NCBI RefSeq assembly: GCF_003194585.1
Contig: NZ_QHKZ01000001.1
Coordinates: 248,001-312,000 of the forward strand
Direction: 5' to 3'
Source: Nocardioides daejeonensis
Lineage (GTDB): Bacteria > Actinomycetota > Actinomycetes > Propionibacteriales > Nocardioidaceae
Length of the DNA: 64,000 nucleotides
Of this stretch, positions 52,311 through 54,204 are shown in pieces; position 1 is the first letter of the stretch, and every line of letters begins with the position of its first letter. The position numbers and the translations under genes are program-made. Below the pieces are notes generated by a model. It saw only the letters and a program-made list of their open reading frames with translations. It was not told where the DNA came from and ran no database searches.

Positions 52311-52358
52311 ATGATGACTCTTCACAGCCTCCTCCTTCGCTGCCGCAGCGAGGTCTGA
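52311..52358 (+). CDS. leuA leader peptide with three consecutive leucine codons
   Basis: ATG ATG at 52311-52316 opens a 15-codon frame, [15 protein letters not shown], ending TGA at 52356-52358. Codons 7-9 are CTC CTC CTT (52329-52337), a run of leucines, and leucine is also codon 4. The frame lies 74 bp before leuA, the first leucine-biosynthesis enzyme, and its end overlaps stem-forming RNA. This is the standard layout of ribosome-mediated amino-acid attenuation. It is too short to be noticed by ordinary gene prediction. Confidence 0.85.
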
Positions 52359-52426
52359 AAGCCGGACCCCCTCGCTGCGGAGTTTCGTGGTGCGTGCCCG
52401 GCGCCCGACCCACCATCGAAGCGAGG
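52335..52426 (+). promoter_or_regulatory. leuA attenuator: mutually exclusive pairings reaching the ribosome binding site
   Basis: Segment 1 CTTCGCTG (52335-52342) pairs with segment 2 CAGCGAGG (52346-52353). Segment 2 within CCGCAGCGAGG (52343-52353) alternatively pairs perfectly with segment 3 CCTCGCTGCGG (52370-52380), 11 bp. The first part of segment 3, CCTCGCT (52370-52376), can also pair with AGCGAGG (52420-52426), which contains the likely leuA Shine-Dalgarno. Stalling at the leucine codons would cover segment 1 and favour 2:3, freeing the ribosome binding site. Confidence 0.65.
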
Positions 52427-52431
52427 AACCC

Positions 52432-54204
52432 ATGACCAACCTGAGCAACACCGCCAACAGCCAGAAGCCGAGCGGGATGCCGCACCAGCGCTACTCGGCG
52501 TTCGTGCCGGTCGACGTACCTGACCGCACCTGGCCCACCAAGCGGATCACCCACGCGCCGCGCTGGCTGAGCACCGACCTCCGCGACGGCAACCAGGCGC
52601 TGATCGACCCGATGAGTCCGGCTCGCAAGCTGAAGATGTTCGACCTGCTGGTCGGCATGGGCTACAAGGAGATCGAGGTCGGCTTCCCGAGTGCCAGCCA
52701 GACCGACTTCGACTTCGTCCGGCAGCTCATCGTCGAGGACCGGATCCCCGACGACGTCCAGATCTCCGTGCTGACCCAGGCGCGTGAGGACCTGATCTCC
52801 CGCACCATCGAGTCGCTGGTCGGTGCCGACCGCGCCACGGTGCACCTCTACAACGCCACGGCGCCGCTCTTCCAGCGCGTCGTCTTCGGCGTCACCCCCG
52901 ACGAGTGTCGGGCGATCGCCACTCGGGGCACCGAGCTGGTGATGAAGTACGCCGAGCAGCTGCTGGGCGGGATCGTCGGCAGCGAGGACTTCGGCTACCA
53001 GTACAGCCCGGAGATCTTCACCCAGTCCGACACCGACTTCGCACTGAGCGTCTGCGAAGCGGTCTCCGACGTCTGGCAGCCCGAGGCTGGTCGCGAGATC
53101 ATCCTCAACCTGCCGGCTACCGTGGAGATGTCCACGCCGAACACCTACGCCGACCAGATCGAGTACTTCTCGCGTGGGTTGACCCGCCGGGAGCACTCCG
53201 CGATCAGCCTGCACCCCCACAACGACCGGGGTACGGCGGTCGCCGCCACCGAGCTCGCGCTGATGGCCGGTGCCGACCGGGTCGAGGGCTGCCTGTTCGG
53301 CCACGGGGAGCGCACCGGCAACGTCGACCTGGTCACGCTGGGGATGAACCTGTTCAGCCAGGGCATCGACCCTCAGATCGACTTCTCCGACATCGACGAG
53401 GTACGCCGCACGGTCGAGTACTGCACGCAGCTGCCCGTGCACCCGCGACACCCGTACGCCGGTGACCTGGTCTACACGGCTTTCTCCGGCTCGCACCAGG
53501 ACGCGATCAAGAAGGGCCTCGAGGACCTGGACCAGAAGGCGATGGCGCAGGGCATCTCGGTGCGCGACATCGCCTGGGAGGCGCCGTACCTGCCGATCGA
53601 CCCGAAGGACGTCGGCCGCACCTACGAGGCCGTGATCCGCGTCAACAGCCAGTCCGGCAAGGGCGGAGTCGCCTACATCCTGAAGGCCGACCACAACCTG
53701 GACCTGCCGCGGCGTGCGCAGATCGAGTTCAGCCGGGTGGTGCAGGAGCACACCGACAGCGAGGGCGGCGAGATGACGCCCGAGCAGATCTGGCGGGTCT
53801 TCAGCGCCGAGTACCTCGACCGGGACACCCCGCTCAGGCTGAACTCGGTACGCACCTCGTCGACGGCCGGCGGCAAGGACGAGCTGGCGGTCAACATCTA
53901 CGTCGACGGGGAGGAGCGGGAGCTGGTCGGCACCGGCAACGGACCGATCAACGCCTTCACCAACGCGCTCTCCGAGCTGGTGGCTGCCGAGCAGGAGAAG
54001 GGCAACCCCGCGTTCGAGAACCGTGGCGACGTGCGTGTCCTGGACTACGCCGAGCACGCCCTCTCCGCCGGTGGTGACGCGATCGCCGCCGCCTACGTCG
54101 AGTGCGCGGTGCGTGACCAGATCCTGTGGGGCGTCGGTCTCGACGCCAACATCGTGACCGCGTCGCTGAAGGCGGTCATCTCGGCGATCAACCGCGCCAA
54201 CTGA
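52432..54204 (+). CDS. leuA: 2-isopropylmalate synthase LeuA
   Basis: A 590-residue enzyme that condenses acetyl-CoA and 2-oxoisovalerate, the first step of leucine synthesis. The HMGL-like TIM barrel holds [16 protein letters not shown] near 49 (metal Asp), [19 protein letters not shown] with metal histidines near 261, and [20 protein letters not shown]. The C-terminal (about 440-590) regulatory domain carries leucine feedback inhibition. It is the long actinobacterial type. The ATG at 52432 has GAGGAACCC upstream. Expression is probably controlled by the leader. It ends at a 17-bp hairpin. Confidence 0.97.

Follow-up and report, generated by a model that had tools for sequence, protein, structure and literature searches.

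The LEU element before leuA in Nocardioides daejeonensis: a pseudoknot leader with two putative anti-Shine-Dalgarno segments and putative sensor codons that differ between operons

The closest described relative of the locus examined here is the LEU element, which was named by Seliverstov et al. in 2005 and combines a leader carrying a run of leucine codons, a pseudoknot, and a base stem between the Leu codons and the Shine-Dalgarno sequence (SD) of leuA; it was found in most of the Actinobacteria studied at that time (PMC1262725). Its authors regarded translation of the leader as unlikely given mutants of Streptomyces coelicolor, and proposed a protein ligand (PMC1262725). As relayed in that paper, mutating the leuA leader of S. 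coelicolor was not without effect, but the effect did not fit classical attenuation, and a later part of the same text describes mutations of the Leu codons as being without influence on regulation (PMC1262725, citing Craster 1999). The leu leaders of S. lividans (leuL1), C. glutamicum and C. diphtheriae lie before the same gene and also contain a Leu run; they are annotated as attenuators or leader peptides, and the available portions of these sources give no structure or mechanism for leuA (PMC8079986, PMC4046766, PMC5784534). The S. lividans peptide LeuL1 (MRFGLLLLSCRGEGL) is described, in the available part of its source, as leaderless and without a typical terminator (PMC8079986). The ilvB leaders of Corynebacterium (PMC10272879) and of M. 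tuberculosis ilvB1 (PMC13236596), to the extent of the text accessible for both, likewise use branched-chain codons of an upstream open reading frame (ORF) as the sensor, and there too a stalled ribosome or one at the stop codon decides the fold. Unlike the terminator-free locus described below, they act by transcription attenuation through an intrinsic terminator (PMC10272879, PMC13236596; same portions of text).

We analysed a stretch of 64,000 nucleotides of N. daejeonensis DNA, hereafter the window, in which the arrangement upstream of leuA is that of the actinobacterial LEU element; neither the kind of element nor the masking of the leuA SD is new. The leader ORF with its Leu run lies upstream of leuA in an actinobacterium, the stop codon and the leuA ATG being 73 nt apart; the pseudoknot consists of helix 2:3 (11 bp) and the helix GCCGG/CCGGC (5 bp); and the base stem between Leu codons and SD is present in the minimum free energy (MFE) fold, with a pairing probability of 0.89 in free RNA and a coupling z of -4.9. 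The Leu-run leader, the pseudoknot, the Leu-codon:SD stem and the absence of a terminator are thus shared with the element of 2005, the description of which includes no pairing between segment 3 and the SD, no copies before leuB, leuC or a second leuA, and no Val/Ile sensor (PMC1262725). Reading of the N. daejeonensis sequence recovered every segment of the original prediction at its position (Table 1), including a 15-codon leader with Leu-Leu-Leu before leuA; the distance from stop codon to ATG is one nucleotide shorter than the 74 that had been given. The best named relatives of this LeuA are from Nocardioides (up to 87%). The region 52311-52440 folds with a z of -3.30, only 2 of 200 shuffles being equally stable. 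Upstream, a divergent ORF of 181 aa occupies 51767-52312 on the minus strand, its listed start overlapping the leader ATG; by eye, a TTG near 52270 is the likelier start, which would place the leuA promoter between both genes.

Table 1. Coordinates of the LEU element and leuA in the window, and of the two further elements in the same genome.
Feature	Position	Strand	Remarks
TANNNT -10 box TATCGT	52295-52300	+	10 nt 5' of leader ATG
Leader peptide gene	52311-52358	+	15 codons, stop 52356-52358; probably leaderless
Three Leu codons CTC CTC CTT	52329-52337	+	putative sensor and first anti-SD
Segment 1	52335-52342	+	faces 52346-52353: 8 pairs, one G-U
Segment 2, 5' arm of helix 2:3	52343-52353	+	covariation
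Helix A 5' arm GCCGG (pseudoknot)	52361-52365	+	own versus swapped arms, both-side changes
Segment 3, 3' arm of helix 2:3; putative second anti-SD part 52370-52376	52370-52380	+	
Helix A 3' arm CCGGC (pseudoknot)	52398-52402	+	sequence and helix search
AGCGAGGA, leuA Shine-Dalgarno region	52420-52427	+	sequence, state folds
leuA, 2-isopropylmalate synthase, TIGR00970 type	52432-54204	+	NCBIfam NF002991 and TIGR00970 above cut-off
Second LEU element	L257:515-603 (G000:C2:69414-69502)		before second leuA; leader VLTAQVLLLGRHGGA
Third LEU element	L258:3345-3428 (G000:C12:250244-250327)	minus	before 41-codon ORF, leuB, ilvE; leader MRSVFVLIDCRGEA

The window lacks the terminator hairpin and U-tract before the gene that define a classical transcription attenuator, and a scan of 52200-52520 found no terminator-like site, in agreement with the proposal that a leader peptide acts here without a classic terminator. 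An Rfam search of the window returned two matches, neither of them useful (E 7.6 and 9.3), and gave no match to a known riboswitch or T-box model; the same search of seven other loci gave nothing useful. The original prediction had also called the locus riboswitch-like, a term that holds in the sense of SD masking only, with no ligand pocket implied. T-boxes bind tRNA directly, unlike the element in the window. The translational ileS T-boxes of Actinobacteria do share with it an SD-masking hairpin, an anti-sequestor and a tRNA charging signal (PMC1262725).

Segments 2 and 3 pair perfectly over 11 bases. In addition, we found a second helix, helix A, that had been absent from the original prediction and joins 52361-52365 to 52398-52402. 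Because segment 3 lies between the arms of helix A and segment 2 lies 5' of both, the two helices together make an H-type pseudoknot. We aligned 76 elements, every second of 152 short-linker representatives. Helix 2:3 was paired in 98.7% of the cells of this alignment, with both-side changes at 6 of its 11 pairs, and the perfect 11-bp helix that had been predicted is therefore borne out by class-wide covariation. Helix A showed both-side changes at all five of its pairs; it was paired in just 70.6% of cells, perhaps owing to poor alignment of the linker. Taken together, the two helices contained 105 cells changed on both sides, compared to 39 in shuffles. When the pairing was instead searched for in each of 167 representative sequences, the own arms of helix A outperformed swapped arms (z 8.1), with no signal within the Nocardioidaceae group (z -0.3). 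Among copies of the element before second leuA genes, 5 of 9 change CCGC/GCGG to CCAC/GUGG, a compensatory replacement at a pair that is invariant in the 76 leuA elements. Helix 1:2 was rejected as a conserved pairing: the predicted 8 bp, one of them G-U, are present in the window, but own pairs were no better than swapped ones (z 0.86). Thus, of the three pairings originally proposed, 2:3 covaries and segment 3 is coupled to the ribosome-binding site (RBS), while 1:2 shows nothing.

AGCGAGG at 52420-52426 is complementary to 52370-52376 in segment 3, and the leuA ATG is at 52432. The Leu codons and the bases that follow them also pair with the SD region, in the MFE fold, an arrangement that the original prediction did not contain. 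To score such pairings across the class, we calculated, for each 12-nt stretch of an element, the duplex energy with the leuA RBS of that element and with RBSs exchanged within each of three groups, comprising Nocardioidaceae and close relatives (group A), other close matches (group B) and the remaining class sample (group C). The 256 leuA loci came from named and unnamed sets that share genomes, and the class rates given below are hence taken from a separate count of 158 genomes. By rule, 12 of these loci had no LLL leader with helix, five of them with variant leaders; the remaining 244 were reduced to 226 by dropping duplicates and starts less than 25 nt past segment 3, and to 167 by clustering. 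The scan of these 167 representatives gave two peaks, one at the Leu codons (z -4.9) and one at segment 3 together with the bases just 5' of it (z -6.5), compared with about -2.7 to +1.9 for stretches overlapping neither peak; leuA starts were picked by rule and some are surely wrong, which weakens the test. The segment 3 peak recurred in groups A, B and C (z -3.7, -4.1 and -4.0). With 31 families as the units, the Leu codons scored -3.8 and segment 3 scored -5.8, and other stretches ranged from about -2.3 to +1.7. The energy of the segment 3:RBS duplex was about -14 kcal/mol in group A and weaker in the most distant group C (own -8.3 to -9.4). The pairing of segment 3 with the leuA SD, which had been offered as the inferred part of the original prediction, was accordingly upheld at the level of both sequences and families, and by this comparison both anti-SDs, the published one at the Leu codons and the one proposed at segment 3, look real. 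The motif CGAGG occurred in 24 of the 27 group-A leuA representatives with NGAGG (of 36 in all); it is also the commonest NGAGG form before other Nocardioides ORFs (40 of 66 sites; p 0.007 for the comparison).

Next to these comparisons we modelled the accessibility of the SD using RNAfold with pseudoknots excluded. In the window, the SD was predicted to be unpaired at 0.6% in ribosome-free RNA, at 26% with a ribosome stalled at the Leu codons and at 0.2% with a ribosome at the stop codon. The ribosome-free RNA had the SD paired with the Leu region at 89%, and the RNA with a ribosome at the stop had it paired with segment 3 at 94%. GAGGA and the ATG were free in the predicted stalled fold, and the SD was buried in the at-stop fold. 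The modelled window fold with segment 2 covered hence agrees with the earlier proposal that segment 3 would then mask the SD. Across the class the predicted changes in accessibility were modest, with the SD opener in the stalled state than at the stop in 90 of 167 representatives and the reverse in 17, compared to 160 and 49 of 501 RBS-swapped controls.

We propose that the LEU element of the window is probably a ribosome-gated attenuator that reads the supply of leucyl-tRNA via the Leu codons of a leaderless leader, and we infer a stall, an order of states and a leucine response as follows. With no ribosome on the leader, the Leu codons would pair with the leuA SD and expression would be off. 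When leucine is plentiful, the ribosome would reach the stop codon and cover segment 2, leaving segment 3, and the Leu codons behind the ribosome, exposed to bind the SD, so that expression would again be off. When charged tRNA-Leu is short, the ribosome would wait on the Leu codons and hide that anti-SD; segment 2 would be free and would lock segment 3 in the 2:3/A pseudoknot, and with GAGGA and the ATG open, leuA would be on.

A leaderless start had already been suggested for the leader, and was supported by the presence of a TANNNT box 6-12 nt before an in-frame start in 161 of the 167 representative elements, compared to 4 of 491 shifted placements. The window has such a box (Table 1), but a stricter scan for two-hexamer promoters gave no site in 52200-52520. 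At the final Leu codon ahead of the pseudoknot (52335-52337 in the window), 152 of the 167 representatives have CTT, and CTT occupied the two preceding Leu positions in 35 and 53 of them. The leuA of the window itself uses CTT at none of its 47 Leu codons. Pairing with the SD does not on its own explain the preference for CTT at the last Leu codon.

The distribution of the element was determined with a covariance model, R1, for which a strong match was defined as E <= 1e-4. Strong matches were found in 154 of 158 class genomes, and the four genomes without one (G207, G226, G240 and G241) also lack a close LeuA of the TIGR00970 type. A phylum sample of 198 genomes contained 17 known class members and 181 new genomes, 2 of which had a match better than 1e-6 (G439 and G518, from one family); the new genomes listed, which are all but 124 that had no match, are marked as lying outside the class. 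Both of these matches precede a gene that reads as leuA. Nearly all members of the class thus have the LEU element, which is rare outside the class. We also observed an element in Cutibacterium porci, with the leader MSRALLLVCRSETR and a 2:3 helix of 10 bp. The 2005 paper reports no LEU element in P. acnes, a species related to C. porci (PMC1262725).

In the genome of N. daejeonensis itself, two further strong matches lie before a second leuA and before leuB (Table 1). In the first of these, CTCCGT in segment 3 and ACGGAG ahead of the start form, by eye, a possible segment-3:RBS match that is changed in step relative to that of the window. The leader of the copy before leuB contains Val, Leu and Ile codons, and leuB is followed by ilvE (Aminotran_4). 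We read 20 extra matches from 19 genomes, all 20 with a leader and a -10 box, and they precede a second leuA (9), leuB (6), leuC (3), a class-I LeuA (1) and a small LeuA_dimer protein (1), as identified for one or two genes per kind by family models, for L265 by tblastn and for the rest by eye. The model alignment A2 held 46 sequences after L262 and four leuA rows had been removed by hand. In 40 genomes, 47 matches at E <= 2e-4 fell before the main leuA (34), leuB (8), a second leuA (3) and a class-I leuA (2). Among strong matches there were no non-leucine uses of the platform; weaker, diverged versions of the element may have escaped the scan. We rejected 11 weak matches to R2 (L283-L293, E 0.006-0.25), which had no leader by rule and of which only L288 is possibly real by eye. 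The LeuA_dimer protein noted above (L272:613-1005) is a stand-alone protein resembling that allosteric domain; it passes the Pfam cut-off and follows a clear LEU element with the leader MSRMLVVRRRSGV. A similar LeuA_dimer-like protein at L288:370-810 fails the cut-off and follows the weak match; the reading frame at this match has AVVVTRRSGV at its end and possibly represents the last part of a gene further upstream. The copies that precede a second leuA, leuB-ilvE, leuC, another type of LeuA and one or two stand-alone LeuA_dimer proteins are apparently new relative to the open-access literature searched; some of these sites may have appeared earlier in Craster 1999, Neshat 2014 or Lopatovskaya 2010.

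Of the 57 loci obtained in a search starting from leuB, 34 have the element: 8 among the 30 best loci from a class sample of 59 genomes, four of these 8 being from Nocardioidaceae, and 26 among 27 loci of further Nocardioidaceae; the class-sample matches near leuB at L313 and L318 belong to the neighbouring leuA. All told, 43 leuB loci with the element include six genomes twice, leaving 37 distinct loci, 30 of which are from Nocardioidaceae, so that the leuB leaders are not independent of each other. The other seven come from five families and carry ALIL, VLIL, VRIL, LVIL or IFVL. Within the stretch examined, every one of the 37 distinct element-bearing loci has ilvE downstream of leuB, as do 15 of 23 loci that lack the element.

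Leader codons were then counted in leaders located by a rule that does not require Leu, which found a leader in 234 of the 256 leuA loci; three distinct leaders without an xRx(E/G) motif were set aside, two of which (L063 and L192) are wrong ORFs. LLL was present in 164 of 170 distinct leuA leaders and in none of 29 distinct leuB leaders, whereas two or more Val/Ile codons were present in 4 of the 170 leuA leaders and in 28 of the 29 leuB leaders (for example VFVLI, LVVI and VRIL). The leuC leaders carry Leu runs (L263, L267 and L269), and one second-leuA leader (L277) has TTVL and no Leu run. The synthesis of valine, of leucine and of isoleucine all involve IlvE, and Val, Leu and Ile codons thus fit the product of a leuB-ilvE operon. 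The leader codons therefore match the end product of the operon, Leu for leuA and Val/Leu/Ile for leuB-ilvE, which suggests that the sensor codons themselves are what the switch reads.

The output at leuB may be different. A conserved ORF, some 41 codons long, starts 55-335 nt past segment 3 in 28 leuB loci of Nocardioidaceae, and coupling of segment 3 was absent both for the RBS of this small ORF (z -0.75) and for that of leuB (z 0.89). Either the leuB copies act through another output (Rho, or translational coupling via the small ORF), or SD masking is an extra refinement confined to leuA. This lack of segment-3:RBS coupling at the leuB copies is the main reason why our overall confidence is not higher. 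By tblastn, the small ORF between the third element and leuB (MYDMYPEWGPAMHNPENPYSHEAVRAALDLRDNGAQRPDDN) recurs in 29 of the 34 element-bearing leuB loci among L296-L352, each of the 29 being from Nocardioidaceae, and in 0 of the 23 that lack the element; its role is perhaps in translational coupling.

Several other explanations deserve consideration. In the one put forward in 2005, a regulatory protein, with the ML1624 orthologues as candidate, attaches to the LEU pseudoknot and decides whether the SD is accessible, so that the leader peptide is not the sensor; it draws on a phylogenetic-profile argument and on its authors' reading of the S. coelicolor mutants (PMC1262725). Those leader-mutant results do count against a ribosome-gated reading. 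A protein bound to the pseudoknot would leave unexplained why the codons on an unchanged knot follow the pathway, with a Leu run at leuA and Val/Leu/Ile at leuB-ilvE, and why a -10 box sits at leaderless distance in 161 of 167 elements. Because the codons swap with the pathway, they favour codon reading by the leader ribosome and disfavour the protein ligand, which we regard as quite improbable. An explanation to which we give somewhat more weight, while still thinking it unlikely, is Rho-dependent transcription attenuation, in which the leader ribosome would set the access of Rho to the C-rich, G-poor stretch past the knot and the SD pairings would be secondary. Such a mechanism would fit the missing intrinsic terminator in 52200-52520 and would suit leuB too, where the next start is 55-335 nt on and no SD pairing was found. 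The leuA spacer of the Nocardioidaceae group has a C content of 0.47 and a G content of 0.18, compared to 0.38 and 0.35 upstream of 153 other ORFs, but the excess of C over G shrinks to 0.38 and 0.25 in the most distant group and to 0.39 and 0.31 in the organism's own leuB spacer. The M. tuberculosis leuA leader yields bands of 85, 65 and 45 nt, according to the accessible part of the report (PMC3526491), which would also fit. That two segments co-evolve with the RBS is, however, not expected under Rho control.

We also considered whether the pseudoknot might act as a roadblock at which the leader ribosome slips by one base and goes on to translate into leuA. CUU is a shift-prone codon, the knot starts 5 nt past the last Leu codon, and the +1 frame of the window runs without a stop from the leader into leuA, as an open frame of 628 codons. 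Nevertheless, leuA has no constant frame with respect to the leader (70, 57 and 40 of the 167 representatives), and some relatives have almost no open frame before leuA. Frameshifting into leuA was rejected on this lack of conservation, and we consider it extremely improbable.

Taken together, our comparison lends statistical support to the second anti-SD, and it contributes further sites and a codon swap that points to codon reading by the leader ribosome. In its broadest form, the ribosome-gated reading would make the element a modular attenuator throughout the class, in which the ribosome of a leaderless leader gates one pseudoknot and the sensor codons are swapped per operon, with Leu runs at leuA, leuC and the majority of second leuA genes and Val/Leu/Ile at leuB-ilvE; at leuA, the Leu codons would double as an anti-SD under the waiting ribosome and segment 3 would be a second, mutually exclusive anti-SD. 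For this wider reading we judge the case to be evenly balanced.

Neither the S. coelicolor mutants of 1999, as far as these are relayed in the later literature, nor the comparison of 2005 settled how actinobacterial leuA is controlled (PMC1262725). Because one pseudoknot comes with different codons before leuA and before leuB-ilvE, the identity of the sensor becomes testable. If the proposed reading is true, a candidate leucine-supply regulon would comprise leuA, the second leuA, leuB-ilvE and leuC, and the element would represent an attenuation platform that needs no terminator, in bacteria among which are producers of antibiotics and strains used for amino-acid production.
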